Assembly (NCBI GenBank): GCA_963965975.1
Contig: OZ014412.1
Coordinates: 10,769,849 to 10,833,848 of the forward strand
Direction of reading: 5' to 3'
From: Xestospongia bergquistia
Lineage: Eukaryota > Porifera > Demospongiae > Haplosclerida > Petrosiidae
DNA: 64,000 bases
Shown: in pieces, positions 18,068 through 63,972 of the stretch
How the letters are laid out: each line of letters starts with the position of its first letter
Position numbering within the stretch: position 1 is the stretch's first letter
The notes under the pieces: generated by a model
What the model saw: the letters and a program-made list of their open reading frames with translations, nothing else
Database searches by the model: none
What the model was told of the DNA's origin: nothing
Translations under genes and position numbers: made by a program

Positions 18068-20480
18068 TTATAGCAACCTTAAAAAGGAATATTGCAGTAT
18101 TAATATTATAATTATAGCTAAAAATGATAGTTTTAAACTAGTGTATAATTTTGTTTGAACACGATTCAATCTCTCTTCCAAGTCTGTAACCTGTCTCAAT
18201 AATGAAGTCTTCTGTTTTTTTAGTTCACTTAATAGAACTTGTAAACGATTTTTTTCTTTATCTGATATACGAGCTAATACACTAATATCATTTTGTGCTT
18301 TCTCCTTTTCTTGTTCCAATCTACGAGCATACCTTTGTGTTTGTTTTATTTTGCCTTCCAATAGATAAGTATTATCTTGTATTTCCTCTTTTTCTTGTTG
18401 TAATGTATGAGCATACAGCAGTGCTTGATCCATTCTTTCTCTTGACACACGAGCATCTGTTTGTGCTTTTTCCTTTTCTTGTTGCAATTGATTAACATTG
18501 TCTTGTGCTTCCTTCTTTTCTTGTTCCAATCTCTGAGTATAACTTTGTGTTTGTTCCATTACTTCTTCCAATAGATAAGTATTAGTTTGTGTTTTATTCT
18601 TTTCTTCCAATACACGAATATCTTGTACTTGCTTCGCCACTTGTTTTCTTAGTGCATTGTTTTCTTTTATCATCTCAAATTGATTTTTCAATGGATGTAG
18701 ACTAGAAACAGCACCTTGAGCACATGTAATAGCATTACTCATAGTAGGTCGCTTCTTAGGATCATTTTCCAGACAAGATTTGGCAAACAAATAGAAAGGG
18801 TTATCATTAGATATTATTGCTGTATATTTGGCTCTTCTATCCCATTCATTAACAAGAATAAAAGTTCCTTTTTGGAAAAAATCAGTACTATGAACATATT
18901 TATCGGAAGGCTTAGGCCATTCATGTGTGAAGACATGGAGAATTAAACAGCCATATGAAAAGACATCTAGCTTATAGTCATAAACTGGATTGTCCTTGAG
19001 AGCTTCAGGAGGCATCACAACAGAATTACCTGGTGCTACAGAAAGCTTTTGATAATTAAAAGTGTCTGCCATTCTAGACACACCTAGGTCAGATATCTTT
19101 GCTACAAAACTAGAGGTCAATAAATATGTTATTGGCTGTGAGATCACGATGGACAATGGGAGGTCTCTTACAATGAAGATAATTGAGACCCTTTGCCACA
19201 TCAAGAAGTATAGAGTATTTGATTTGAAGTGGGAGATCACGATGTGATTCTAAACATTGTGTTAATGACAAAGGAAGATACTCCATTACTAACATAGGTA
19301 GTTGATTATTAGGTCTAGAATGGACACCTATTAACTGGACAATGTTAGGATGACGTTGTTGACTATGACAAGACATTCTTCTTTGAATTTGATTAATGTT
19401 TTTTCCTAAAATGAAGAAAGAAAACTTAACATTTAGGTTCTCCTCCTTCCTGCCCAGCTAGAACTTAAGCAGTCATTTTCACTTTTTAAGGTAACACAGC
19501 TTAGGTTCTTTAATTCTATATAATTATTTATTAGTTTCAAAGAACAATAATACATTTCTTCATGTTGCCATTAATTTTCTGTTTTTACTTATTAAAGTTA
19601 TTACCATTTATATTTGAAACTAATAAATCAAGAAATAGAGAATGACAAGTGAATTGTGAATTAAATGCTTTATGTGATCACATTGTAAGCGTAATTATAG
19701 ATTATTACAAAATTGGGGTTGGAAACAGTACATTTGATCTCATATAATTAAATACTATATAATAATAATAATTTACTTTACATTGATTTGGTACATTGAG
19801 ATATCATAACAGATTAATATGTCATCTGTATATTATCCTTGTTAAAATACATTATACTATAATGTGGGAATATTGGTAGCATAGTAATTGACACATAGTA
19901 TTGACACAATAAGGTAATGGAGAGTTTATAGAAGAGAATAGATTATAGAAAAGGAATGGTACAGTACAGTGGGTTGTTCTTTCTTGAAATACTTAAACAA
20001 CGCCATTACAACACACTTGTATAGTACTACTTTAAAATTTAACATAATAAAATAGTAATCAATAAAACTATAATGGATTAAGCCAATTTCTGGAAAGTAA
20101 ATCACTTTACAAAAAATCTTCAGAATTCAAAGTACTTATACTTCTAGAAATCTAAAGTTGGAGAAAGTTGTATGTCCCAACAATTCCTGTAATAACACTT
20201 CAGTAAAAATGAATTTATTATTTTAGCATGCTATAGTGCTGTGTTGTTTTATTATGTCAACTGTATACATAACAACAGGTGGGCATTTCTACTCATGTTT
20301 ACAATTTTATACCTGTATAATAGCTTCATGTAGGGTCTTTCCAGCACAAATCAGACCACTAACTCTAACCTCATAAACAACACCATAAGCTCCATGACCA
20401 ATGCGTTTCCCTGTCTCCTCTACACTATCCAGTGATAAAGATCGAAGGCGATCTTGAAGATGTTGAAGAGGACGAGACAT
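18068..20480 (-). CDS. protein kinase with coiled coil and C-terminal membrane anchor; frame broken in the catalytic loop
   Basis: Exon 1 (20313-20480) starts MSRPLQHLQDRLRSLSLDSV and holds the Gly-rich loop IGHGAYGVVYEV and a VAIK-like CAGKTLH. The next exon (to about 19405) carries HPNIVQLIGVH, VMEYLPLSL and the catalytic loop HRDLTANN. Then come DLGVSRMAD (DFG variant), MPPEAL (APE), DVFSYGCLILHVF and KRPTM. After the kinase domain about 170 residues form a coiled coil with repeated QRLEQEKE units, ending in a hydrophobic anchor (LSFLAIIIILILQYSFLRLL) and stop. This suggests a membrane-tethered TKL/tyrosine-like kinase. Two oddities: between HRDLTANN and ILLTSSFVAKISDLG the frame shifts by one base near 19125, in a short T-run. 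The exon 1/2 junction also does not agree in phase, so a small exon may be missed in the 900-bp intron. It could be a recent pseudogene or contain sequence errors. Confidence 0.75.
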
Positions 20481-28147: not shown

Positions 28148-31100
28148 ATGACAATCAAAAGGGCTGTTTTTGTTATAGTAGTAATGGTAACAGTACTGCT
28201 AAGCATTATTTCATACTCTTCATGGTGGCATACACCTTTCCAGTCTGATATCTCTACACTGTCTACTGGTATATTGACTCCAACTAAACACAAAGATTAT
28301 TTTTGTTGTGGACCAGAAGAACTAATTGAAAATAGTAATCTTCCAGTTCGGACATTAAGTAACAATGAGAAAGCAGGCAACAATATTATGATCACTATCA
28401 GAACTACTAAGAAATTTCATCGAAAAAGATTACCAATTTTATATGATACTTGGTTAACTGTAGTAAATGGTAGTAATGTGTTTTTAGTGACTGATGGAGA
28501 AGATGATGAATATCAGGAAAAAAGTAAAAAGTTAGGTAAGTACATAATTTGTGTTACATAATCAAGCAATAATATTGAATGACCACACTAAGATGAAAAT
28601 AGAATGTAATGAAAACTGAATATCTCATAGCAATGACACATTTTAACATTTTGTCAAGTGGTCTAAAAATGCTCTATTTATTTAATTGCTTATTTATGAA
28701 ATTACTTTTAGTTTCATTTTTTGTGGTAATCAATGAGGTAAATTAATTATTTGAAATATGTTTGTGGAATAATTTATGAAATTATTATTTACCATCTTAG
28801 TGAGGTAACTACATGTAATAAATTAGAGAAACATTAAACTTTTAACTAAGCAATTAATGTGATTACTTAACTAAAGGCTATTTTCTTTACAAAATAATTT
28901 ATTCAGGTATCAATTATATTGTTGTCTCTTGCAGACATCATCGTAAGAGGTATGCATATTTCGTTTCATTACATTATTTTAAATTTCATACAAAAGATTG
29001 ACTTTGTGTTGTAAGTCTGGAGAAGAAATGGCATTAATGCACAGACTAGAAAATCAACACTATGAGTAAGTGATTATATGATATATTTGATTTTGACTAT
29101 TATGAGGTGTAATTACTATGAGTGAAAATCAAATATAATTGATATATAATTATTACATACAATGATATTACATAGTTTTGACAGCTGTAGTCAATTTTAA
29201 CACTTAGATTTATTTTCTCTTCAGTTGGTTTTATCATGTGGATGGCAATGTATATGTCATTATGGGCAATTTAGTTAACCTACTATCAGAGATTTCCTAA
29301 AACTAATGCTAGATACATTAGAAAAAACTTTAACTCCTTGGAAAGAGGCTTCTCTCGTAAGTAATAGTCTGTAAACTTATCAGTGGCTCTAAATCTAAAA
29401 TGTCATGAGTATATGATGAGTTATTTCAATAAAAAGGAGTTTGTTTAAAGATAACAATGCTGAAAAGTATACACACTAATTAGGGATACAGTTAACACAT
29501 CACTTCTACAACAATCCTTATAAGTAACTTATTGAAAATATGGTACATTACATTGAAATTTATTGGTTATTACAAAAGATTATTTTTTCTTTTTTAAGTT
29601 GGTTTTGTCATGTGGATGATGATGTTTATGTCATTATGGACAACTTGGTCAAACTGTTATCAAAGATGGATCCTAAAACTGAAGCTAGATATATTGGAAA
29701 AGCTGGAACTAGTTGGAAACATCCTCTTCCAGTAAGCTGTTGTTTTTACATTACTGTAATTATTATACATGTCAGTATTAAAATGAGTAAATTTTATTGC
29801 GAAAATTTATCAAATTTGGTGGATTTATCAATAATGAGATATGGTAGTAGTAGGTGGAACAAGTAGTGAACGTATCGTTCCATAATCTATCTCAGTTATC
29901 AAAGCACCTTACAAATTAATGTTTCAAAAGAAATGATATGCTCTCTTATATAGATATGGTTCTTTAAAAAACATCTTAATATTTGAAGCTATATATAACA
30001 AGTGTCATCAAGTAGTCATTTGTCAACTTTATTTTTGTCAAAATCTATTATATAACTATCAAGTAATATTTTCTCTCATCAAAATTATCTGCTATATGGT
30101 ATAAGGTATTGTTATCAATCTATTCAAAGTTGATATATACTTTATAGTGTGTTAATTATTTAAGTGATGAATATTCTAATTTATCTTTAAAAATTCACAC
30201 TTAAAATTACTATGAGAAAATCTAATTTGCCACATTTTAGAAGTTTTACATTATCAATAATTATTTAATGAATTTTAAAATAATTTTTCACTTATGTGTT
30301 AAAATAAACATGAATGTGTCAAATATTATGTAGACTAAAACCATTATTGTAGTCTTCTTACACAGTTTAATACAGCAAATGCATGGATAAATGTATAAGA
30401 GAATTATTTTCTTGTATATCTGGCCACTCAAGATTATAAAGAGTGTCTAGTTACGTCTCTTTATAAGTGCCTAAGACCTATTGATAATTCACGAGATCTA
30501 TATTCCAATTTCTCATTATAGCTTCGGTTTCCAAATTTTCTTATAAATATAGAGGTCACATATCATGTATTGTAAATACTTAAGCAAGTTCAAATAGTAC
30601 ATGTTAAATATATAAACCACACATCTACCAAAATTTGTCTCCACCAATTATACCAAATAACCTATTCAACTAATTGTATACAATTCAATTTTGTATATTA
30701 ATTAACAAATCATTGTGACATTTCATCTATTCTTCATAGCTTAACAAGAAACAAACATTAATAAAGGTATCACAACATATCTTTATTGACTAGATGTAAC
30801 AGGACTTATGTTGTTTATAATAGGACACGAATCGAACTTATCATTTTGGTGATGGTGCTATGTATTGTTTATCCAGACCTATGTTAATGAAAGTCAAACC
30901 ATGGATAGGGTAAGTATAAAAATGTTTAATTATGTGAAATTGTTAATGTTTGCATTTGTTTAATTATTACACATGCACTTACCTTACAAATCCTTGATTA
31001 TACTGCTTATAAATTAGTTTTGTTTAACTGTTTTAAATATTGATGTTCATAGTACTAAGCATTGTATAGCTTAATCATATAGCTATACAGGGATAGTATA

Positions 31101-33268
31101 GAATTATTATCTGAAATGTCAAACATTGCTAAAATAGAATGTAAAGATTCTAAAGCATTTCATACACCTTTTTCATTCTTCGTTGGTAAGCCATAAGGAC
31201 AGTAGAATCCACTTAGTATTTGTTGTCTTTTTAATATCTGGCATTGTTCATACCAGGCAGTCATATAGTTAATTAGCTGACAATTTACTCAGGGCATGCA
31301 CAAAGATTACATACATCCAATATGCCATCCACTACCAAGATGATTTTTCTTCATAGCAGTCCCAAGTCAACCATTGTGCTTCTAAATTAAACAAAACCCT
31401 GCTAATCTGTTCATATAGCTGTGGTTCCTGTTGCCTTTCAGAAGATTAAGGATCCAAGCATCTTAATAACATCTCTTGGTATAGAAATATACACATTGTC
31501 CTTCCAGTTAAGACTAAAGCAGCAAGCCCCAAAGGCCAATGTTATTACATGGCAAAGCCACCAGTGCTACATAAAATGCAAACTGTAGTCCATCTTACTA
31601 GTAATTTAAACTGTGTTAATAGGGGTGTCCCCAGCACATGCACAAGTCAGCTCAGGTGGCTGGGTAGAGCCACAGCTACAACACTAGAGCCTCTTTATAA
31701 AGTGTATGTCAGGGCTAGAATGCTATCACTACATATAAGTCTGAATTTGCAACTTTTTTATCCACCTTAGTCATTATACCCTTCCATTTACCATCCAAAT
31801 GAGGGTGTGATCTACAGTCTGCTGGGTTCATTCCTTTGCCTTTCTTGTCTGCTGTGGTCAGAAGGTGAAATGAGGCATAACAATCTCATTATGGTAACAA
31901 TTTCTACCAAGACAAAAGAGAAAGGCAGTACATACATAGTTATAATTCAGCATATGTAAGGCTTAGCTTAAGCTCCACCCTCAGATTTGTGTAGCCACTC
32001 CCACACATTGATTTCTCCAAATCCTTACTAGGCTATATGTTTTATCCCTCCAACATATTCTTCATTCTCTTAAAAACTTTACTATATTATTTGTCACATC
32101 CTGTTTACAGTTTACATAAAACTAAAAGGCTTCATAAACCACTTTATTAACACAACAGATTTAACTGGCTTCTATATTGGATACACATAAACCAGTTAAA
32201 GTAGTGATTATGCTCATTATTATGGAGATATATTCCATAAGGGGTGGGGCTCACCCCATGCTATGCTTGCCTCTCTACAACACCCTTCATGCTTTCTTGT
32301 AGTGCACAAACATAGTAAGATTTTCTGGTATATATATATATATATATATATAGTGCCTGTAATCACTGGACTAGAGGACATTTGAAGATTCAATATTTTA
32401 TAATAAAATATTGTATACATCAATTTAATTAACGTATTAATTTCTGTGAACTGAACATACCAATATTTTTGTATTTGAAATGTTCTAGCAGAGTTATAAT
32501 ACAATTTATACAATACTATCTTTAGGATTGGAAGATATGTTTTGTTTGATTTGATATCTTAAATGAAATTAATGGTATACTCTCAGAGACATTCTATACC
32601 AATTTTCACTGTCTTTGTTATAGGAATGGATATACAATGGCTAAAACATGTCGTAAGTCATTAGAGCCAGATGATGTGACAGTTGGACTGACTGTGGGTA
32701 AGACTATGATTTGTTCTTATAATTAAGAAAATCATTGCCACTAGAGAGAGGGTTCTTTTAAATGTTAATTAGTGGGAGGAGTTGACTATAGTGTTGTTCA
32801 ATGAGAATGATTACCTCTATTTTGCAAATAATTTTTTATTGTGCCAACATGAGACTTGGAAAAATCCAGGTGACCTTTCTCTCTCTCTCTCTCTCTCTCT
32901 CTAGAACTATTAGCTAATGGACGGTTAACACGCACAAACTTAATCTATCCACATGGACTATTTTTGTCTCAAGAAAAGGTTGACCAAAGAACTTTAAAGC
33001 AACAGGTAAGACAAGTTATTACAATAAGTACTCTTGACATTGTCTCTTCCTCTTTAGGTTGGATTTGCTTATGGCTGTGGTCAGTTATGCTCTAATAGTG
33101 CCTACAAAAACAATGCAATTAGAGTACCTAATGCAAAATTTCCTTTCAAAGACGACCGGTCAAGGTGCCTTTTGTTTAATTTCAAAGCAACATAATTGAT
33201 CTTGTCATTTTAGGTTTAAATCACTTCACTGTTATCTTCACCCAAGTGCTTCATTGTGTAATAATTAA
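28148..33268 (+). CDS. Fringe-like beta-1,3-glycosyltransferase, array member 1
   Basis: Fringe enzymes add GlcNAc in beta-1,3 linkage to O-fucose on EGF repeats in the Golgi; the acceptor here is unknown. Exons: A 28148-28535, B 28907-28949, C 28997-29065, D 29599-29731, E 30740-30766, F 30824-30909, H 32624-32697, I 32905-33005, J 33058-33164, K 33214-33268. All junctions agree in phase. Exon A gives a short cytosolic tail, one membrane helix (VMVTVLLSIISYSSWW), a stem and IRTTKKFHRKRLPILYDTW, the Fringe signature. Exon D carries the metal-binding HVDDDVYV, F the FGDGAMYCLSRP segment, H PDDVTVG, and K FKSLHCYLHPS, the Fringe C-terminal motif. The stem is shorter than in the other members (the ENKTVN block is missing). 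Exon B reads SCRHHRKR where the other members have SCGHDY. Exon D' and alternative exon G are listed separately. Confidence 0.85.
29225..29356 (+). pseudogene. decayed duplicate of exon D in member 1 (D')
   Basis: It keeps a 3' splice site (cttcag) and a donor (gtaagt) and reads WFYHVDGNVYVIMGNLVNLL, but the HVDDD motif is lost (HVDGN) and an in-frame stop follows. By flanking sequence it occupies the position of exon D in members 3 and 4; the working D exon of member 1 lies 240 bp further on. Confidence 0.75.
31091..31185 (+). other. alternative exon G of member 1, candidate mutually exclusive with exon H
   Basis: A 95-nt open segment has a good acceptor (tatacag) and donor (gtaagc). It enters in phase 2 and leaves in phase 1, exactly like exon H. 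It reads IELLSEMSNIAKIECKDSKA and HTPFSFFV, and its spacing mirrors exon H (MAKTCRKSLEPDDVTVGLTV): AK, then C, then S, then T, ending V before the shared ELLANG. Joining F-G-I keeps the frame; F-G-H does not. It is conserved in member 4. Confidence 0.6.
31250..32330. repeat. intron F-H repeat block shared by members 1, 2 and 3
   Basis: Colinear with 45790-46260 and 55030-55810, with shared stretches such as ggcaaagccaccagt, ttcagcatatgtaaggctta and ggggtggggctcaccccatg. It is longer here than in member 2. It contains no exon; a 73-codon ORF at 31549 lies in it but is not shared. Confidence 0.6.
32879..32904 (+). repeat. (CT)n run forming the polypyrimidine tract of exon I
   Basis: The acceptor of exon I in member 1 is preceded by about 24 bp of pure CT repeat. 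The same position has shorter CT runs in member 2 (46589-46605) and member 3 (56271-56286). Confidence 0.8.
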
Positions 33269-42728: not shown

Positions 42729-45700
42729 ATGATCATGACAAGGACATTTAAAGCTGTTTCGATTATAGTAGTAACTGTAACAGTACTGCTAATCATTATT
42801 TCATACTCATCATGGTGGCATGAGGACATGGTATTATTATCAGTATCATCATTAAATAATATTAAGACTACAAACGAAACAAAATCAACAGTTGAAAACA
42901 AAATTGTTAATATTATTAGATCTACTCCTTCTCCGACTGTTTCCACTTTCCAGTCTGATATCCCTACACTGTCTACTGGTACATTGACTCCAACTAAACA
43001 CAAAGATTATTTTTGTTGTGGACCAGAAGAACTAATTGAAAATAGTAATCTTCCAGTTCGGACATTAAATAACAATGAGAAAGCAGGCAACAATATAATG
43101 ATCACTATCAGAACTACTAAGAAATTTCATCGAAAAAGATTACCAATTTTATATGATACTTGGTTAACTGTAGTAAATGGTAGTAATGTGTTTTTAGTGA
43201 CTGATGGAGAAGATGATGAATATCGGGAAAAAAGTAAAAAGTTAGGTAAGTACGTTATTTGTGTCATTATTGTTACATAATCAAGTAATAATGTCGACAG
43301 AATTTACTAGGATCAGAATGAAATTGAATATCTCATAGCAATGACACATTTTCACACTTTGTCAAGTGGTCTAGAAATGGTCTATTATTTAATTGCTTAT
43401 TAATGAAATTTATTTTTTGAAATAATCAATTAGTTTAATTATTTAAGTTATATTTGTGAGAGAGATTTTAAGAATTTTTTTCCATCTTAGTGAGGTAACT
43501 ACATGTAATAAATTAGAGAAACATTAAACTTTTAACTAAACATTTAATATTGTTATTTAACTAAAGGCTTTTTCTTTACAAATAATTTTATTTAGGTATC
43601 AATTATATTGTCGTCTCTTGTGGACATGATTATAAGAGGTATGCATATTTTGTTTTATTGCATTATTTTAAATTTCATACACAAGATGGAGTTTGTGTTG
43701 TAAGTCTGGAGAAGAAATGGCATTAATGCACAGACCAGAAAATCAACACTATGAGTAAGTGATTATATGATATATTTGATTTTAACTATTATGAGGTGAA
43801 ATTACTATAGGCTAAAATAAAAATTAATAAATTATTATTACATGCAATGCTATTACATAAATCAAACTATTGGTTTGACAGCTGTACTCAATTAACGCTT
43901 AGAATTGTTTTCTTGTTCAGTTTTTGTCATGTGGATGATAATATTTATGTCATCATGAACAATTTGGTTAACCTATTATCAAAGATGGATCCTAAACTTG
44001 AGGCTAGATACATTGGGAAATTTTAACTTCATGATAAAAGCCTTATGATGTCACAAGAATACAATAAGTCATTTCAATGAAAAGGAGTAATAACAATGCC
44101 AAAAAGTACATAAGCTAATTAGGGATACAGTTAACACATCACTTCTACACAACAATCCTTACAAGTAATTTATTGAAAATATGGTACATTACATTGAAAT
44201 ATATTGGTTATTAGAAAAGGTTATTTTTTTCTTTTTTAAGTTGGTTTTGTCATGTGGATGATGATGTTTATGTCATTATGGACAACTTGGTCAAAATGTT
44301 ATCAAAGATGGATCCTAAAACTGAAGCTAGATATATTGGAAGATCTGGAACATACTGGAAACATCCTCGTCCAGTAAGTTGTTGTTTATATAGTAATGTA
44401 AGTATAATGCATGTCAATATTATAATGGAGTATATTTGGCCAGGGGGAAAATAATCAAATTTGGTGAGTTGTATTTCATTTGCCAAATATTTATTAATAA
44501 TTTATTGAAATGTGGTATTAGTAGGTGGAGCAAGTAGTGAACATATGTTTCCATAATCTATCTCAGATGTCAAAGCACCTTACAATAAATAATATTTAAG
44601 CCTCCCTATGTGGATATGGTCCTTTCAAAAAACATCTTACTTTTGAAGCTATAACAATTGTCATCAAGTAGTCATTCATTAAATTTATTTTCACCAAATA
44701 TATTTAATAACTCTCAGCCAATATTTTCTCTTGTCCAAATTATCTGTTATAAGGTACTATTATCAATCTATTCAAAGTTGATATATACTTTATAGTGTGT
44801 TAATTATTTAAGTGATGAATATTCTAATTTATCTTTAAATGAATACTCAAATTTACTTTTAAAATCCACATTTTAAAAGTTTTATATTATAAATTTAATA
44901 AGTTATTTTCATTTATGTGCCAAGATAAATGTGAATGTGTCAAAACATTATGCAGATTAAAACCCTTACCATGTCTTCTTACACATGTTCAATACAATAT
45001 GTGGCATACATAGATATACAAGAGAATCATTTCCTGTATATCTAACCACTCAAGACTATAGAATGTGTCCAGTCATGTCTTTTACAAGTAACTGATGCTT
45101 ATCGATATTCATGAGATCTACATTCCAATTTCTCACTATAGCTTTGGTACCCAAGACTTTCTTATAAACTTTGAAATCATATTTCATGTATCATAAACAC
45201 TTCAGCAAGTTCATCTAGTACATGTTAAAATAATAAATCAAACTTCCAACAAAATTTGTCCCCAAAAATTAAATGAAATAACTTGTTCTTCACTAATCAT
45301 GAAAATTATGACTTACAAATTTTACCAACTAACTGTATTGATATATATAATTAATACATTACATCTGATCTATTGGTTTCTGCTGACTTTAACAAATTGA
45401 AAATGGGAAATAAATAGACACACAAATTAGGAATTTTACTAAAATTGAAACAGAACATGTAAAGATGTTCTACTAATTGTGTACAATTCAATTTTGTATA
45501 TTAATTAATAAATTATTATGATGTTTGGTCTCTTCTTTGTAGCTTGACAAGAAACAAACATTACTGAAGGTATCATATATGTTTATTGACTAGATGTAAG
45601 AAGAGCTATGTTGTTATAATAGGACACAAGCCGAACTTACCATTTTGGTGTTGGTGCTATGTATTGTTTATCCAGACCTATGTTAATGAAAGTCAAACCA

Positions 45701-46966
45701 TGGTTAGGGTAAGTATTAAAAGTTTAATTATGTGAAATTGTTAATTTTTGTATTTGTTTAATTATTGCATATGCATGATTCATACTCTCATCTTTTTTTT
45801 CCATGGGCATAAGGATGAAATTAGGTATAATAACCTCATTATATATGGTAATAATTTCCCTCCAAAAGAAATGGACATCTATACATTTACAATTATAATT
45901 CAGCATAGGCAGAGCTTAGTTTAAACTCCACCCTTAGCCTTCTGTGGCCACTCACACACACTGATTTTTTCAAATCCTTCTAGTGGATGTGTTTGGCAGG
46001 GTCTCTTTGTTCATCATCCTTTTAAAAACTTCATTTGCCACATTGTGTTTACAGTTTACAGAAAAACCACTTTATTTATATAACAGTTGTAATCTTAATT
46101 TGGCTTCCATATTGAAACATTATAAACCAGTAAAAGTACTGATTATACTCGTGTATTATGGGGAAATGTTGAACAAGGGGTGAGGCTCACCCTATGCTCT
46201 GGTTCCCACATGCATTCCCATAGTGCTCACACATAGTCAAGATTTTCTGGCAAGTATATACTACACCTATAATCACTGAAATTATTAGTATACTTTCAGA
46301 GACATTCCATGGTAATTTCTACTGTCTTTATTATAGGAATGGACCTACAATGGCTAAAACATGTAATATGTCACTAGAGCCAGAGGATGTGACAGTTGGA
46401 CTGACTGTGGGTAAGACTATGATTTATTCTTATAATTAAATAAATCCTTAGCACTAGAGATCGGTTCCTTTAAATGTTATTTAATAGGAGGAGGTGACTA
46501 CAATATTATTCCATTAGAAATTTTACCTCTATTTTGTAAAATGTTTTTATTGTGCCTGCATAAGACTTAGAGAAAATTCAAGTGTTCTTTCTCTCTCTCT
46601 CTCTAGAACTACTAGCCAATGGACGGTTAATACGCACACATTTAATCTATCCACATGGACTAATTTTGTCTCGAGAAAAGGTTGACCAAAGAACTTTAAA
46701 GCAACAGGTAAGACAAGTTATTACAATAAGTGCTCTTGACATTGTCTCTTCCTCTTTAGGTTGCATTTGCTTATGGCTGTGGTCAGTTATGTTTTGTGCC
46801 AGCCTACAAAAACAATGCAATTAGAGCACCTAATACAAAATTTCCTTTCAAAGACGACCGGTCAAGGTGCCTTTGTTTAATTTCAAAGTAATGTAATTGA
46901 TCTTGTCATTTTAGGTTTAAATCACTTCACTGTTATCTTCACCCAAGTGCTTCAATGTGTAAATAA
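42729..46966 (+). CDS. Fringe-like beta-1,3-glycosyltransferase, array member 2
   Basis: Exons: A 42729-43245, B 43596-43638, C 43686-43754, D 44241-44373, E 45543-45569, F 45623-45708, H 46337-46410, I 46607-46707, J 46760-46866, K 46915-46966. All are in phase, giving about 400 residues. The N-terminus MIMTRTFKAVSIIVVTVTVL is a signal anchor. The stem holds Asn/Ser/Thr-rich sequence (NETKSTVENKIVN), and IRTTKKFHRKRL and DGEDDEY follow. Exon B keeps SCGHDY, C LCCKSGEEMALMHRPENQ, D HVDDDVYV, H PEDVTVGLTV, and K FKSLHCYLHPSASMCK. FGVGAMYCLSRP has Val where the other members have Asp, at a position next to the usual GGAG-like turn of Fringe. There is no alternative exon G; its intron is shortened. 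The coding start follows the conserved acceptor tttaacacag. Confidence 0.86.
43921..44026 (+). pseudogene. decaying duplicate of exon D in member 2 (D')
   Basis: A splice acceptor (tgttcag) leads into FCHVDDNIYVIMNNLVNLLS and KMDPKLEARYIGKF followed by a stop. The first Trp codon and the donor site are missing and the third Asp of DDD is Asn. By flanking sequence it is the counterpart of the working D exon of members 3 and 4. It is less decayed than the one in member 1. Confidence 0.75.
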
Positions 46967-47600
46967 TTATAAAGTTCTTGATTACATTACTTCAATAATT
47001 TATTTTAATTTAATTTGAACTACCATTATTTATGTTTTCAAGCTTGTATTATTATATTTTTAAAAATCCTAAAATTGTACTAGGTCATAGATCATACAAA
47101 CTGTGCAACACTGCAATATAATAGTTTTGAAATTGCATTGACATACAGCGGAAGGAATTGAGGTCATCAGTAAGAGAGATATATATGGAAACGGTATTCA
47201 TGTGTTAAGAATTATGCAAGACTTGGAGTTTGTTTCTTGAGTTGCATAGACTTTATGTAATATTGTGTACAAAGGAGAATACTTAATAGACAAGCAAAAA
47301 TAACAATGATGAGGGCAGTCAGACCAACTCAAACAGTACAACAAATAAGTATAGTTAAGTACAAAAAGCAAATGAACAGTCTAGAAAGTTGCTATGCATG
47401 AATTAATGTATTTACTTTAAACTTACCTGTGATTTATGATCACACTTGTGTCATATATGAGAATTAATATATGATTTAGGTTTGATAGTATAATATATGC
47501 ATCACAAATTAATATAGAAGACACTTGTTTTCATTTACTACATATACATATCATAAATGTATACAATATATATATAATACACTTGTGATGCATAATACAG
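46967..47600. other. 3' flank of member 2
   Basis: No exon. Shared with the flanks of members 1 and 3; rich in short inverted repeats (tttgatcac, atatgtgat). It ends abruptly in a fragment of another array copy at 47601. Confidence 0.55.
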
Positions 47601-48915
47601 GATAATGATGTTTATGTCATCATGGACAATTTGGTTAACCCATTATCAAAGATGGATCCTAAAACTGAAGCTAGATACATTGGAAAATCTAACTGGAAAC
47701 AACATCTGTCAGTAAGTTGTTGTTTATATATTACTATAACTACAATGCAAATCATGCAGTTATTATAATTACAATGGTATATTTAGCAGGGAAAAAATTA
47801 TCAGGGCTGCATTTTATTTCAAAAAGTTTATCCTCTAATATTTTATTGAGATATGGTATTAGTAGGTGGAGCGATTAGTGACTATATATTTCCATAATCT
47901 ATCTCAGTTATCATGGCACTGTACAAAATTATTTTTTCAAATGAAATAATATTCTTCTCTATATGGATATGGTCCTTTTAAAAAACATCTTAACATTTGA
48001 AGCTATAGCAGTTGATATCAAGTAGTCATTCACAAAATTTATTTTCATCAAATCTATTTATAACTATCAACTAATATTTTCTCTCATCAAAATTATCTGA
48101 TATTTGGTATAAGGTACAATTATCATTCTATAGTAAGTTGATATTTGCTTTATAATGGTTAATTATTTGAGCGATGAATATTCTAATTACCTCTCAATTC
48201 ACGCTTAAAATTATTACAAGAAACTCTAATTTGCCACAATTTAGAAGTTCTACATTATAAATTTACTGAATTTTCATTTATGTGCCAAGATAAACGTGAA
48301 TGTGTCAAAACATTATGCAGATTAAAACTCTTCCCATGTCTTCTTATACATGTTCAATACAATATGTGCATATTGTATTGAACATGTCTAAGAAGACATG
48401 GTAAGAATGATCGATATACAGAAGAATTATTTTCCTGTATATCTGGCCACATAAGACTATAGAATGTGGCCAGTCATGTTTCTTTACAAGTGTCTGAGGT
48501 CTATCGATAAGTTAAGTTCAAATTTCTCACTATACCTTGTAGGTATCCTGTAAACATAGAAGCCACACATCAGCAAATTCAACTCTATACATATAGTACA
48601 TAAGAAATAATTATACCACACCCACACCATAATTTATCTCCAACAATTATACAAAACAATGAAATCGTGACAATTAAATTATGACTCTTAAATTTTACCA
48701 ACTATACAGTATATATAATTAATACATTACATATGAGCTACTGATTACTGCTGATTTAACCAAATTGAAGGTGGGAAATAAATAGACACACAAATTACGA
48801 ATTTTATATTGCTAAAATTTAAGTAGGATTTATTAAGAAGTTCCATTAATAGTGTACAATTCAATTTTATATATTAATTAACAAATCATTGTGACCTTTG
48901 ATCTCTTCTTCATAA
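47601..48915 (+). pseudogene. fragment of a further Fringe-like copy: exon D and the D-E intron
   Basis: Exon D here (47601-47711) starts inside the DDD motif (DNDVYVIMDNLVNPLSKMDP) and ends with an intact donor. The following 1.2 kb is closest to the D-E intron of member 4 (61953-63130), including a shared 68-bp palindrome. It stops just before exon E, at the junction with an inverted piece of 3' flank. No other exons follow, so it is an isolated fragment. Confidence 0.75.
48334..48401. repeat. 68-bp near-perfect palindrome in the D-E intron fragment
   Basis: catgttcaatacaatatg meets its inverted copy catattgtattgaacatg, extended on both sides by ccatgtcttcttata/tctaagaagacatgg. One mismatched pair lies away from the centre. 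An identical structure occurs in member 4 (62578-62645). Member 2 has only the left arm at about 44980-45005. Confidence 0.85.
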
Positions 48916-49505
48916 ATTAATTATTACAATAAATTTATGATGTTGATGAAGGTTTAGGTACATTATTTAGGTAAAATGAATATCTCAATGTTATTAACTT
49001 ACTGCTACATTTATGACCATACCTGTGATTGATGTGTATGTTTGTTATATGATATGATGTCATAGGTAAAGTGAAGATTTTATACTATTTGCAATACCTT
49101 TGCTGATCATTACTGTATTATGCGTCACAAGCATATATTGTATACATTTTTGATATATATGTGATAAATGAAAACAGGTGGCTTGTATATTAATTTGTGA
49201 TACAATATCAAACCTATATCACATATTAACATTCACATATGAGATAAAATTGTGATCAAAAATCACACATAAAGTAAATACATTAATTCATACATTGCAA
49301 CCTTCTAGAATGTTTATTTGCTTTTTGTACTTCCATACATGCTGTTGGTCTGACTTCCCTTGTCATTGTTATTTTGCTTGTCTATTATTAAGTATTTTCC
49401 CTTGTATACAATAAAGTCTATGCAACTCAAGAAACAAACTCCAAGTCTTGCATATAATTCTTAACATTTTGTATGATATATGACCTAGTACAATTTTAGG
49501 ATTTT
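48915..49505 (-). repeat. inverted copy of the array 3' flank
   Basis: Reads as the reverse complement of about 56770-57330. For example, gacatcatatcatataacaa and agcatgtatggaagtaca occur there on the + strand and here on the - strand. It is joined directly to the exon D fragment on its left. Confidence 0.75.
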
Positions 49506-52782: not shown

Positions 52783-55700
52783 ATGATCATTAAAAAGGCT
52801 GTTTCCATTATAGTAGTAACTGTAACAGTACTACTAATGATTATTTCATACTCATCATGGTGGCATGAGGACATTGTATTATTATTGGCATCATCATTGA
52901 ATAATGTTAAGACTGTAAATGAAACAAAGTCAACAGTTGAAAACAAAACTGTTAATGTTATAACATCTAGTCCTTCTCCAAAATTGGCTAAAACAAAACA
53001 CAAAGATTATTTTTGTTGTGGACCAGAAGAACTAATTGAAAATAGTAATCTTCCAGTTTGGACATTAAGTAACAATGAGAAAGCAGGCAACAATATTATG
53101 ATCACTATCAGAACTACTAAGAAATTTCATCAAAAGAGATTACCAATCTTATATGATACTTGGTTAACTGTAGTAAATGGTAGTAATGTGTTTTTAGTGA
53201 CTGATGGAGAAGATGATGAATATCAGGAAAAAAATAAAAAGTTAGGTAAGTACATTATTGTTATATGATCAAGCAATATTATTGAAAGAACTCACTAAGA
53301 TTGAAAATAAAAACTGAATATCTCATAACAATGACACATTTTAACATTTTGTCAAGTTGTCTAGAAATGGTCTATTTATTTAATTGTTTATTTATGACAT
53401 TATTTTAGTTTTAATTTTTTGAGGTAATCAACAAGATAAATTAATTATTTAATTATATTTGTGAGATAAGTTATGAAATCATTTTCTATTTTAGTAAGGT
53501 ATGGAATATTGAACTTTATAAGTTAACTAATTAATATGCTAATTTAGTAAAAACTTATTTCCTTTACAAATGAATTATTTAGGCATCAATTATATTGTTG
53601 TCTCTTGTGGACATGATTATTGGAGGTATGCATATTTCATTTCATTACATTATTTTAAATTTCATACACCAGATGGAATTTATGTTGTAAGTCTGGAGAA
53701 GAAATGGCATTAATGCACAGACCAGAAAATCAACACTATGAGTAAGTGATTATATGATATATTTGATTTTAACTATTATGAGGTGTGATTATTATAGGCT
53801 AAAATAAAAATTAATAAATTATTATTACATGCAATGCTATTACATAAATCAAACTATTGGTTTGACAGCTGTACTCAATTAACACTTAGAATTATTTCTT
53901 GTTCAGTTGGTTTTGTCATGTGGATGATGATGTTTATGTCATCATGGAGAATTTGATTACCCTATTATCAAAGATGGATCCTAAAACTGAAGCTAGATAT
54001 ATTGGAAGAGCTGGAAGTAGTTGGAAGCAACCATGTTTAGTAAGTTTATTTATATATTACTGTAAGTATAATACATATCAGTTATCATAATTATAATGGA
54101 ATATTTAGCAGTGAAAAAATTATCAAATTTGGTAGGTTGCATTTTATTTGCCAAAAGTATATCCTCTAATATTATATTGAGATGAGGTATCAGTTGGTGG
54201 AGCAAGTAGTGACTATATATTTCCATAATCTATCTCAGATATCATGGCACTGTACAATTTGTCCAGTCATGTCTCTTTACAAGTGCCTGAGGCGTATCGA
54301 TAACTTCTTAGACTAAATTCAAATATATCAGCTCAGGTATCCCAGATTGTGTTATAAATATTGAATCACATCTCAGCAAGTTTAACTAGTACATGTGAAA
54401 TAATTAAACCACACCCCCACAAAAAATTGTCTCCAACAATTATACACAATAGCTTGTTCTTCAGTGTTAATAAAAATAATGACTCTCAAATTTTACCAAT
54501 TATATGGTATTTATAATTAATAGATTATGTCTGAGGTATTGGTTACTGCTGGCTTAACAACCAAGTTGAAGGTTGGAAATAAATAGACCCAGAAATTAGG
54601 AAATTTATTTTGCTAAACTTAAGCCACATATGCTAATTATTGTACAAATAACGCTCCTTAACCTAACTTACTACTAACTTTACCAAATTGAAGGTGGGAA
54701 ATAAATAGACCCACAAATTAGGAATTTACTAAAATTAAAGCAGAATATGTAAAGAAGTTCCACTAATTGTGTGCAATTCAATTTTCTATATAAATTAACA
54801 ATTCATTATGATATTTGATATCTTCTTCACAGCTTGCCAAGGAACAAACATTACTGAAGGTATTATTAACATATGATTATTAAGAAGATGTAACAGGACG
54901 TATGTGTTTTATAACAGGATACAAATCAAACCTATCATTATGGTGATGGTGCTATGTATTGTTTATCCAGACCTATGTTAATGAAAGTCAAACCATGGTT
55001 AGGGTAAGTAGTAGAAAGATTAGATTATCAGATGGCAAAGCCACCAGTATTGCAAAAAATGCAAACCACAGTCCTTCTTACTATTATATTAAAATGAGTT
55101 AATAACAGAGTCTCCAGCATACTTACAAGGCAGCTTAGGTGGCTATGCAGAAAGATGCAATATTAGAGCCCTCCTACAAAGCCTATGGCCAGTTTAGCTA
55201 GCGTGCTGTCATTACATAAGAGTCTGAATATGCAACTCTCTCATCCACCTTAGTTAGTCATTATACTCTTCCACCTGCCCTCTAAATGGAGGGTGTGATC
55301 TCAGTGTGCAGGGTTCATTCTTGTGTCTTTGTTTACTGTGAAAACGAAGGTGAAACGAGGCATAGCAACCTCATTATGATAGCAATTTCTCAAAAGACAA
55401 TAGGGAAAGGCTACACTTACATTATTATAATTCAGCATAGGCAGATCTTAGCTTAAGCTCCACCCCCAGACTTCTGTGCCAACCTCACGCTCTGATTTTT
55501 CCAAACAATTATTTACTATGGTATATGTTTGAGCCCTCCGGCATTCTATTCTCTTAAAACATTACTCTATTATTTGCCACACCAGTTTTCATAAAACTTG
55601 AATGTAGCCACACATACCACTGTATTAACACAACAGTTATATCTTTAACTAGCTTCTATGTCACACATAAACTAGTTAAATTACTGATTATACTCATCAT

Positions 55701-56651
55701 TATGGGAAATGGTGTAAAGGGGTGGGGCTCACCCCATGCTATGCTTACCATACAACAACACCCCTCATATATTCTTGAAATGCACACATATAGGCAAGAT
55801 TTCTTGGTATGGATATGCTATGTGTAATCACTTGACTAGAGGACAATTGAACTTATACTCAACATTTCATTAAAAAATATTGAATTGTAAACTTATAGAT
55901 ATCAATGTTTTTGTATTTGAAAAAGATTTAGTAGAGTTGTAACACAATATACCTAGCACTATTCATTAAGACTGAAATATATGTTCTGTTTGGTTTGATA
56001 TCTTAATTGACATTAATGATATACTTTCAGAGATATTATGTAATAATTTTCAATGTCTTTGTTATAGGAATGGACCTACAATGGCTAAAACATGTAATAT
56101 GTCACTAGAGCCAGAGGATGTGACAGTTGGACTGACTGTGGGTAAGACTATGGTTTATTCATACAATTAAATAAATTATTTCCAATAGAGAAGTTGCCTC
56201 TAAATATTAATTAATGGGAGGTGACTATAATGTTATACTATGATAATGATTACTTCTATAATCCAGGCGATCTCTCTCTCTCTCTAGAACTATTAGCCAA
56301 TGGACAGTTAACACGCACAAGCTTAATCTATCCACATGGACTAACTTTGTCTCGAGAAAAGGTTGACCAAAGAACTTTAAAGCAACAGGTAAGACAAGTT
56401 ATTACAATAAGTACTCTTGACATTGTCTCTTCCTCTTTAGGTTGGATTTGCTTATGGCTGTGGTCATTCGTGCTTTCTCAGAGCTTCCAAAAATAATGCA
56501 ATTAGAGTACCTAATGCAAAATTTCCTTCCAAAGATGACCAGTCAAGGTGCCTTTTGTTTAATTTCTAAGTATTGTAACTGATTGTGTCATTTTAGGTTT
56601 AAATCACTTCACTGTTATCTTCACCCAAGTGCTTCATTGTGTAATAATTAA
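52783..56651 (+). CDS. Fringe-like beta-1,3-glycosyltransferase, array member 3
   Basis: Exons: A 52783-53245, B 53583-53625, C 53673-53741, D 53907-54039, E 54833-54859, F 54918-55003, H 56068-56141, I 56288-56388, J 56441-56547, K 56597-56651. Junctions are in phase. Membrane anchor KAVSIIVVTVTVLLMIISYS; the stem lacks the STFQSDIS piece found in members 1, 2 and 4. Catalytic parts are IRTTKKFHQKRLPILYDTW, DGEDDEY, HVDDDVYVIMENL, YGDGAMYCLSRP, PEDVTVGLTV and FKSLHCYLHPSASLCNN. Exon D is single and lies in the original position; D' is absent. Exon G is missing: the F-H intron jumps from its first 25 bp straight into the shared repeat block. Exon J (CGHSCFLRASKNN) is the most diverged. Confidence 0.86.
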
Positions 56652-57330: not shown

Positions 57331-57511
57331 AAATATTAATATAGTTATATTTATATTAAATCCTGCAACATTGTTGTACAATGGGAGGAGTTGACTATGT
57401 TATTTGTTATTCCATGAGAATGATTATCTTTATTTTGCAAATGATTTTGATTGTGGCAACAACAGACTTGAAAAAAATCCAGATGATCTTTTTTCTCTCT
57501 TTCTTCTCTAG

Positions 57512-57870
57512 AACAAATTAGCCAATGGATGGTTAATACACAGCTACTTAATCTATCCACATGGACTAAGTTTGTCTCTAGAAAAGGTTGACCAAAGAAC
57601 TTTAAAGCAACAAGTAAGATAAGTTATTATAATGAGTACTCTTGATGTTGTTCCTTCCTCTTAATGTTGGATTTGTTTATGGCTGTGGTCAGTTATACTT
57701 TGCAAATTCCTACAGAAAGAATGCAATTAGAGTACCTAATGCAAAATTTCTTTTCAAAGACAACCAGTTAAGATGCCTTTTGTTTAATTTCAAAGTAAGG
57801 TCATTGATTTTGTCAATTAGGTTTTATTCACTATTATCTTCACTCAAGTTGCAAAATATTTCAAAATAAT
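57512..57870 (+). pseudogene. decayed exons I, J and K of a further Fringe-like copy
   Basis: Similar to exons I-J-K of members 1-3, including IYPHGLSLSLEKVDQRTLKQ, FVYGCGQLYF and NAIRVPNAKF. Exon I has a one-base frame change near its start, the exon I donor is aagtaag instead of caggtaag, the exon J acceptor ag has become aa, and exon K has lost its conserved HCYLHPS reading. It directly follows member 3 and its flank. Confidence 0.8.
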
Positions 57871-60612: not shown

Positions 60613-63600
60613 ATGATCATCAAAAGAGCTTTTAAAGCTGTTTCCATTATAATAGTAACTGTAACAGTACTCCTAATCATTATTTCATACTCATCATGGT
60701 GCCATGAGGACATGGTATTATTATCAGCATCATCATTAAATAATGTTAAGACTGTAAATGAAACAAAATCAAATGTTGAAAACAAAACTGTTAATGTTAC
60801 AAGTCCTTCTCTAACTGTTTCCACTTTCCAGTCTGATATCTCTACACTGTCTACTGGTACATTGACACCAACAAAACACAAAGATTATTTTTGTTGTGGA
60901 CCAGAAGAACTAATTGAAAATAGTAATCTTCCAGTTCGAACATTAAGTGACACTGAGAAAGCAGGCAACAATATAATGATAACTATTAGAACTACTAAGA
61001 AATTTCATCAAAAGAGATTACCAATTTTATATGATACTTGGTTAACTGTAGTAAATGGTAGTAATGTGTTTTTAGTGACTGACGGAGAAGATGATGAATA
61101 TCGGGAAAAAAATAAAAAGTTAGGTAAGTACACTATTTTGAATTAAGATTTATGTCATTATTGTTACATGATCAAGTAATAATATTGACAGACCTCACTA
61201 GAATGAAAATGAAAACTGAACATCTCATAACAATGACACATTTTTACACTTGTCAAGTTGTCTAGAAAATGCTCTATTTATTTAATTGTTTATTTATGAA
61301 ATTAATTTCACTTTCATGTTTTTGAGATAATAAGTTTAATTGTTTAGATTATTTTTGTAGGAAAATTTACAAAACTACTATATTTCCTATTTTAGTGATG
61401 TATCTACCTGTATTAAATCATAGGAACATAGAACTTTAAATTAAAGAATTTATATGTTTATTTAACTAAAGGCCATTTCCTTTACAAATAAATTTATTTA
61501 GGCATCAATTATATTGTTGTCTCTTGTGGTCATGATTATTGGAGGTATGCATATTTCATTTCATTACATTATTTTAAATTTCATACACCAGATGGAGTTT
61601 ATGTTGTAAGTCTGGAGAAGAAATGGCATTAATGCACAGACCAGAAAATCAACACTATGAGTAAGTGATTATATGATATATTTGATTTTAACTATTATGA
61701 GGTGTGATTACTATGGTGTAAAATAAAATTGATAAATTATTATTACATGCAATGCTATTACATAAATCAAACTGTTAGTTTGGCAGTTGTGCTCAATTAA
61801 CACTTAGAATTATTTTCTTGTTCAGTTGGTTTTGTCATGTGGATGATGATGTTTATGTCATCATGGAGAATTTGATTACCCTATTATCAAAGATGGATCC
61901 TAAAACTGAAGCTAGATACATTGGAAAATCTATTTGGAAACAACCTGTGTCAGTAAGTTGTTGTTTATATATTACTGTAACTATAATGAAAATCAGTTAT
62001 TATAATTATGATGACATATTTAGCAGTGAAAAATTATCAAATTTGGTGGGCTGCATTTTTTTTTTCAAAAAGTTTATCCTCTAATATTTTATTGAGATAT
62101 GGTATTAGTACGTGGATCGATTAGTGACTATATATTTCCATAATCTATCTCAGTTATCATGGCACTGTACAAAATTATTTTTTCAAAAGAAATAATAGTC
62201 TTCTCTATATGGATATGGTCCTTTTAAAATATCTTAACATTTGAAGCTATAGCAATTGCCATCAACTAGTCATTCACCAAATCTATTTTCATCAAATCTA
62301 TTTATAAATATCAACCAATATTTACTCTAATCAAAGCTATTTGCTATATGGTATAAGGTAGTATTATCATTCTATTGTAAGTTGATATTTGCTTTATAAT
62401 GGTTAATTAGTCAAGCAATGAATATTTTAATTACCTCTCAAATCAGGCTTAAAATTATTACAAGAAAATCTAACTTGCCACATTTTAGAAGTTCTACATT
62501 ATAAATTTACTGAATTTTCATTTATGTGCCAAGATAAACGTGAATGTGTCAAAACATTATGCAGATTAAAACTCTTCCCGTGTCTTCTTATACATGTTCA
62601 ATACAATATGTGCATATTGTATTGAACATGTCTAAGAAGACATGGTAAGAGTGATTGATATACAGAAGAATTATTTTCCTGTATATCTGGCCATATAAGA
62701 CTATAGAATGTGTCCAGTCATGTTTCTTTACAAGTGTCTAAGGTCTATCGATAAGTTATCAGACTAAGTTCAAATTTCTCAGCTTAGGTATCCTGTAAAC
62801 ATAGAAGCCACATATCAGCAAGTTCAACTAGTACGTATGAAATAATTAAACCACACCCACACTATAATTATCTCCAACAATTATACAAAACAATGAAATC
62901 ATGAAAATTATGACTTTAAAATATTACCAACTATACAGTATATATAATTAATACATACATATGAGCTGCTGATTACTGCTGATGTAACCAAATTGAAGGT
63001 GGGAAATAAATAGACACACAAATTAGGAATTTTATGTTGCTAAAATTTAAGCAGTAAGAAGTTCCATTAATAGTGTACAATTCAGTTATATATATTAATT
63101 AACAAATCATTGTGACCTTTGATCTCTTCTTCGTAGCTTAACAAGAGACAAACATTACTAAAGGTATTATAACATATCTTTATTGACTAGATATAACAAG
63201 ACTTATGTTGTCTATAATAGGACACAAGTCAAACTTACTATTTTGGTGATGGTGCTATGTATTGTTTATCAAGACCTATGTTAATGAAAGTCAAACCATG
63301 GTTAGGGTAAGTACTAGAAAGTTTAATTATATGAAATTGTTAATGTTTGCATCTGTTTAATTATTACACATGCACTTGCCTTGTAAACTCGCTTATAACT
63401 TAGTTTTGTTTAATTGTTTTAAATATTGATGCTTATAGTACTAAGTACTATAGAGCTTAATCATATAGCTATATATAGGGATAGGGATTGTATAGAATTA
63501 TTATCTGAAATGTCAAACATTGCTAAAATAGAATGTAAAGACTCTGAAGCATTTCACACACCTTTTACAATCTTTGTTGGTAAGTCGATCACAAAGAAAG

Positions 63601-63972
63601 CAATATCCACTTTGCATTTGTTATCTTTTTAATATCTAGCATTCTTTATATGCCTTCAGAAGATGTAATCATTGGACTAGAGGACAATTAGACTTACATT
63701 CAATGTTTTATAATATACTACTGCATTGTAACCTATAGATATCAATATTTTTGTATTTGAAAATTTTTTAAAAGAGTTACAACACAATATATCCAACACT
63801 ATTCTTTAAGACTATAATATAAGATTTGATATTTTAAATAAAATTATTGGTGTACTCTCAGAGACATTCTATACTAATTTTCACTCTCTTTATTGTAGAA
63901 ATGGACCTACAATGGCTGAAACATGTAATATGTCACAAGAGCCAGATGATGTGACAGTTGGACTCACTGTGG
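60613..63972 (+). CDS. Fringe-like beta-1,3-glycosyltransferase, array member 4 (3' end outside window)
   Basis: Exons seen: A 60613-61123, B 61502-61544, C 61592-61660, D 61826-61952, E 63137-63163, F 63221-63306, H 63899-63972; exons I-K should follow beyond the window. Membrane anchor KAVSIIIVTVTVLLIIISYS, longest stem with NETKSNVENKTVNVTSPS, then IRTTKKFHQKRLPILYDTW, DGEDDEYREKNKK, SCGHDYWRWSLCCKSGEEM, HVDDDVYVIMENL, FGDGAMYCLSRP and PDDVTVGLTV. Exon D is two codons shorter than in the other members (GKSIWKQPVS). The alternative exon G is present at 63479-63579. The D-E intron contains the 68-bp palindrome. Acceptor and donor sites are all canonical. Confidence 0.84.
62578..62645. repeat. 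68-bp near-perfect palindrome in the D-E intron of member 4
   Basis: Same structure as 48334-48401 with one further substitution (cccgtgtctt instead of cccatgtctt). It lies in the same intron position. Confidence 0.85.
63479..63579 (+). other. alternative exon G of member 4, candidate mutually exclusive with exon H
   Basis: 101 nt, acceptor tatatag and donor gtaagt, phase 2 in and 1 out like exon H. It reads DRDCIELLSEMSNIAKIECK, then DSEAFHTPFTIFV. Compared with member 1 it has six extra bases (two codons) near the start, and changes within the shared part that keep the frame open. A long open segment with both splice sites kept in two diverged copies argues for use. Confidence 0.6.

Follow-up and report, generated by a model that had tools for sequence, protein, structure and literature searches.

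Does the intron that precedes the catalytic-base exon of a Fringe-like glycosyltransferase gene contain a second coding exon, here called G, that can take the place of the catalytic exon, H, and what kind of protein would result from such an exchange? The question is raised by the last of four Fringe-like genes, m1 to m4, which lie in tandem on the plus strand of a 64,000-nt stretch of DNA that we refer to as the window. The genes, and the exons on which the argument turns, are as follows.

m1, 28148..33268, plus strand: complete gene with exons A-K; the forms with H and with G are both open
m2, 42729..46969, plus strand: reads through; exon G not found
m3, 52783..56651, plus strand: complete CDS; exon G not found
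m4, 60613 to past the window end (64000), plus strand: cut after exon H
m1 exon H, 32624..32697, plus strand
m1 exon I, 32905..33005, plus strand: downstream partner common to G and H
m4 exon A, 60613..61123, plus strand: start codon, membrane segment (by eye) and start of the transferase domain
m4 exon D, 61826..61952, plus strand: DDD motif
m4 exon F, 63221..63306, plus strand: Gly-loop segment; upstream partner common to G and H
m4 exon H, 63899..63972, plus strand: 74 nt, encoding PDDVTVG, the xED motif with the catalytic base

Ten coding exons (A-F and H-K) are common to the three complete members, m1-m3, and encode 385 residues in m3. The stop codon of m2 lies one codon earlier than in m1 and m3, and exon A of m1 (28148-28535) has 388 nt against 511 in m4, so that it is 123 nt shorter with the frame kept. 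Elsewhere the window holds a protein kinase gene on the minus strand at 18068-19457 (two overlapping open frames with Pfam matches to Pkinase and PK_Tyr_Ser-Thr, followed by a tail that is coiled-coil-like by eye) and, at 12144-13131, long repetitive stretches that are open in several frames on both strands.

The assignment of these genes to the Fringe family rests on the two proteins that were scanned with Pfam, for which PF02434 (Fringe, GT31) gives 145 bits for the H form of m1 and 139.5 bits for m3 at a cut-off of 21. In the PDB the m3 protein has one sequence match only with an E of 0.001 or less, that to 2j0a, mouse Manic Fringe (E 2.2e-33); in the alignment of its H form to MFNG the DDD metal site, the Gly loop and the xED catalytic-base motif are all present. 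In m3 the PEDVTVG segment of exon H lies opposite PDDCTVG in the mouse enzyme, and the homologous segment of m4 is PDDVTVG. According to the available part of PMC7948508, inverting enzymes of the same fold have their catalytic base in the xED motif; the accessible text of PMC8233153 names D232 as the catalytic base of Manic Fringe and describes a complete loss of activity in B3GLCT D421A, the equivalent of MFNG D232. Fringe has been reported from the sponge Amphimedon and not from Trichoplax, as far as the available portion of PMC2770060 goes. A genome-contig scan of collections that are, by their description, made up of prokaryotes, viruses, plasmids and metagenomes returned no relatives of the m3 protein (nine pattern matches, none confirmed). 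Because exon H holds the catalytic base, a product in which F is joined through G to I would be expected to be inactive.

The candidate exon itself is found in the F-H intron of two of the four genes:

m4 exon G, 63485..63579, plus strand: 95 nt, AG before and GTAAGT after, open in the phase of F, homologous to 31091-31185; DCIELLSEMSNIAKIECKDSEAFHTPFTIFV
m1 exon G, 31091..31185, plus strand: CAG acceptor and GTAAGC donor, 7 differences in 95 with no gap; DSIELLSEMSNIAKIECKDSKAFHTPFSFFV

The m1 homologue occupies the same F-H intron, has the same phases and contains no stop, and with this intact copy the feature is better supported than was stated when it was first proposed. In m4 there are two in-phase acceptors, 6 nt apart. 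The original prediction had taken the upstream one, which gives an exon of 101 nt (63479-63579); that start is indeed in phase, but the start that matches the m1 homologue is 63485.

The phases themselves were correctly predicted: exon F leaves in phase 2, G and H both enter in phase 2 and leave in phase 1, both being open, and exon I of m1-m3 enters in phase 1. That either exon can join F to I is borne out by a full reading in m1, where F-G-I-J-K runs for 367 aa to the normal stop with no internal stop, against 360 aa for the H form; exon I of m4 lies beyond the window, so that the G-I join there rests on analogy with m1-m3. The two exons also proved incompatible with one another, as had been claimed, since F-G-H meets three stops within H in m1 and one in m4, and a direct F-I join in m1 loses the frame and runs into a stop. 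The reading frame is the only thing that excludes G from H among the features examined, the two exons being separated by 319 nt in m4 and 1438 nt in m1. A further candidate, in which G would be joined in frame to an H extended at its 5' side (start 63862, 37 nt upstream), was rejected: its phase fits both m4 and m1, and its acceptor is very weak (-7.9 and -9.0) and occurs also where G is absent.

It had further been noted that G is without the P(E/D)DVTVG segment, and this holds for m4 G. The hypothetical G form of m1 scores 121.9 bits against the Fringe domain even though it is without xED, compared with 145 for the H form; its DDD (exon D), its Gly loop (exon F) and the exons that follow G are retained.

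Since G and H joined together bring a premature stop, this splicing pattern may be read just as naturally as that of a poison exon. G would then be a cassette exon whose inclusion shifts the frame, so that the stops in H, three in m1 and one in m4, send the mRNA to decay and less active Fringe is made from that copy. In m1 the stop of F-G-H is premature and lies upstream of the last junction, as it does in poison exons; in m4 the stop falls in that gene's own H. Inclusion of G would suffice for such a mechanism, and H would not have to be skipped in coordination with it. G combines a strong donor with a weak acceptor (see below), as would suit an exon of low inclusion. On the other hand, the open frame in both copies, the low dN/dS, the coding-like codons and a length that equals that of H modulo 3 would all be superfluous in a poison exon, and we regard this explanation as rather unlikely.

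How strongly, then, has G been conserved? The comparison of m1 with m4 shows 7 differences over the 95 gap-free positions of the exon and 364 over 2032 intron positions (one-sided Fisher 0.003). With its two flanking introns together as the reference the same test gives 0.02, and with the adjacent F-G intron alone (20 differences in 170) the difference is not significant (p 0.18). None of 245 non-exon windows, which overlap, are 95 nt long with at least 85 aligned positions and were drawn from the introns and from the stretch just upstream of exon A, matches the identity of G, and 11 of the 245 are gap-free; gap-free survival of 95 nt would be expected in about 15% of cases. However, the short introns B-C (3 differences in 47) and E-F (5 in 57) are gap-free and about as conserved as G between m1 and m4, from which it follows that conservation near exons is here not peculiar to coding sequence.

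The original prediction had named the dN/dS of G between members as a check. The m1-m4 comparison yields 4 non-synonymous and 3 synonymous changes, and the resulting value of 0.29 is near that of exon F (0.28), with C at 0.57 and H at 1.63, the correct frame having been taken for G, C, F and H only. Taken alone, the dN/dS of G is not significant, because four or fewer residue changes come out of 26% of the neutral simulations in which 7 changes were made. An open frame likewise survives neutral change in 78% of simulations with 7 changes and in 56% with 17.

Of 2682 intron frames of 95 nt, 276 (about 10%) are open. The codon score of m4 G (2.8) is above all 276 of these and that of m1 G (-2.0) is exceeded by 8% of them, in a comparison whose intron windows are overlapping ones; the intron reference of the score was taken from them too, which favours low scores for intron frames. 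True exons score -2.1 to 4.0 (C, F and J) or 3.4 to 10.4 (H and I). The GC content of the two copies of G, 29.5 and 27.4%, is intron-like.

The splice sites of G are of unequal quality. Its donor ranks among the best 2% of the GTs in the window, while the share of window AGs that score as well as its acceptor is 43% for 63479, 86% for 63485 and 57% for m1. The acceptor at 63485 has -10.0, less than any true acceptor obtained when its own exon was left out (the minimum being -9.2); these leave-one-exon-out scores discriminate poorly, true exon B having -2.7, 0.2, -7.4 and -9.2. The pyrimidine content of the G acceptors is 0.50, 0.39 and 0.56, compared with 0.50-1.0 in true exons, and the acceptor of H is stronger than that of G, with 2.6 in m4 and -0.8 in m1. 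Seven candidates in the m1-m4 introns are conserved and in phase, three of them in intron F-H, and all seven, G among them, failed a joint threshold for the two splice sites, G on account of its acceptor at 63485. A scan of the six pairwise alignments of the four genes on both strands, for a conserved AG...GT interval of 40-200 nt that is open in any frame and has a strong donor in both copies, gave a single locus on the plus strand, namely G (four overlapping entries with a common donor), and one 41-nt candidate (m1-m3) on the minus strand; with a donor threshold (8.0) chosen slightly under the scores of G itself (8.2 and 8.8), these counts are descriptive.

Much of this evidence is open to another explanation, that G is a neutral relic or a chance exon-like intron stretch, never or no longer spliced in, which two copies happen to retain. 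The weak acceptor, the intron-like GC, the absence of G from m2 and m3, the lack of a significant difference from the adjacent intron, the equal conservation of other non-coding blocks and the tenth or so of intron frames of this length that are open in any case all speak for it. What a relic accounts for less readily is that two diverged copies hold the frame, the phases, the AG dinucleotide and the strong GT together, and that the six pairwise scans gave no other locus on the plus strand that is open and has a strong donor, if at a threshold near the scores of G itself. Furthermore, all five dead exon copies that were examined have frameshifts or lost splice sites, and G has none; these copies (75 to 89% identity to the exon compared, flanks included) are more diverged than the two copies of G, so that the comparison is not a matched one. 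We consider the relic a possible explanation, open to doubt.

Broken exons are found at several places in the array. A decayed second exon D lies upstream of the intact D both in m1 (29225-29357, with a 2-nt deletion and DGN instead of DDD) and in m2 (43918-44050, with a 4-nt loss at the acceptor and the donor lost), which suggests that the metal-site exon underwent tandem duplication in the past. Downstream of m3, at 57496-57849, are orphan broken exons I and J, with a frameshift in I and both acceptor and donor of J lost, and a short K-like piece at 57827-57849 lies outside the five dead copies examined. Between m2 and m3, at 47600-48949, there is an orphan with part of exon D and the D-E intron, one 172-nt stretch of which is 97% identical to m4.

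The history of G within the array can be read from its distribution. By comparison with m1, G was sought in the F-H stretch of m2 and m3 and not found; the gaps at this place have edges that differ between m3 and m2 (about 111-718 and 154-1031 of the F-H stretch). A tree of exons A-F and H groups the genes as ((m1,m2),(m3,m4)) with a bootstrap of 100 and 19 sites in favour, against 6 and 5 for the other groupings, exon D alone contributing 10 sites to the m1-m2/m3-m4 grouping, and G is thus present in one member of each pair. The simplest reading of this tree and of the differing deletion edges is that G was ancestral to the array and was deleted twice; the sequences suggest, in other words, that the common ancestor of the four copies had G and that it was lost on two occasions. 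Later exchange between m1 and m4 by gene conversion may instead be the source of the common G. Sites common to m1 and m4 against m2 and m3 number none in F, one in F+66 and one in H, segments that show no such exchange; both informative sites of the nearby exon E (2/2), however, group m1 with m4.

As to the origin of G, the loose alignment with H that had been claimed did not hold up, the 31 residues of G being no more similar to H than shuffled G in any of eight comparisons (p 0.27 to 0.98). Duplication of H as the source of G was therefore rejected for want of similarity above the shuffles, though with only 31 residues a very old duplication may have occurred. We also rejected a repeat insertion carrying G, as blastn within the window found a single near full-length relative, that of m1 in the homologous place, and otherwise short weak matches.

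G could also be an alternative last exon, with transcription ending in the intron and the protein stopping soon after G to give a truncated enzyme. Reading on through the donor of G adds 3 residues in m1 and 17 in m4 before a stop is met, and AATAAA or ATTAAA motifs lie downstream at 63837 in m4 and at 31386 and 32402 in m1. Yet such motifs are to be expected frequently in AT-rich DNA and their places do not match, the read-through tails of m1 and m4 are unlike one another, and a strong GTAAG donor is retained in both copies, so that we think this explanation very improbable. Among splicing events in Amphimedon, the available part of PMC4432959 gives intron retention as dominant (45.0%), alternative terminal exons at 22.1%, which is to the credit of a last exon, and exon skipping at 1.8%; this rarity of skipping lowers the prior for a swap of G for H if the animal is likewise a sponge.

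Of the explanations considered, we favour that in which G is an alternative coding exon, kept apart from H by the reading frame and yielding an inactive Fringe, and we put it forward tentatively, as possible and short of probable, with the relic and the poison exon as near competitors. In such a mechanism, G would be an old exon of the ancestor of the array, since lost from two of its four copies. Where mRNAs use G and skip H, F would be joined to I in frame to give a full-length protein, which would keep the metal-binding DDD and the Gly loop and be deprived of the xED segment with its catalytic base; the frame would enforce the exclusion, F-G-H leading to a premature stop. The protein, if it folds, would be an inactive and perhaps substrate-binding Fringe that might act as a decoy.

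Against this reading it counts that H, which has the better acceptor, would need to be skipped, and also that G is absent from two of four members and has a weak acceptor and intron-like GC; in its favour, the G of both m1 and m4 keeps its splice dinucleotides and phases. Jointly the tests modestly favour G as an exon, no single one of them proving it. A mutually exclusive G/H pair is possible on the evidence of the sequence, and the original prediction is supported in part: its phases, its open frame and its loss of the catalytic segment stand, and are joined by a second copy and a divergence like that of exon F, while the likeness of G to H does not. The bolder proposal that the swap toggles tandem copies between an active transferase and a dead form that binds donor and substrate, which would make of it a Fringe antagonist that predates the duplication of the array, we think unlikely.

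If G is used, splicing that includes or omits the catalytic base of Fringe could serve to tune glycosylation in the Notch pathway of this animal. The locus would then provide an example of a coordinated internal exon swap, or of regulated unproductive splicing, in a possibly early-branching animal.

Several known systems resemble the arrangement described here. UGTs are a glycosyltransferase family unrelated to Fringe. Inactive splice forms of UGT2B enzymes are described in the available part of a review (PMC13416403); the inactive human forms arise by a swap of first exons with their own promoters, whereas here the exon concerned is internal and lies at the catalytic base. With poison exons, which act through unproductive splicing, G has in common that its joining to H brings a premature stop, and it differs from them in having an open frame of its own in both paralogues that carry it, with coding-like codons in m4 at least. 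Like the classic mutually exclusive tandem exon pairs, G and H have the same entry and exit phases and together break the frame; the classic pairs are duplicated homologous exons, whereas G is not like H above chance. Homology of mutually exclusive exons is usual, not required. No report of a Fringe with such an exon swap was found in the literature searched, which was covered in part by titles and the beginnings of abstracts. The closest relative remains Fringe itself (GT31, O-fucosylpeptide beta-1,3-N-acetylglucosaminyltransferase; mouse Manic Fringe 2j0a/2j0b), to which these genes correspond in the Fringe domain over the catalytic region, with its DDD and PED motifs, and from which they differ in being four tandem copies, two of which have a candidate spare exon, G, beside the exon of the catalytic base.
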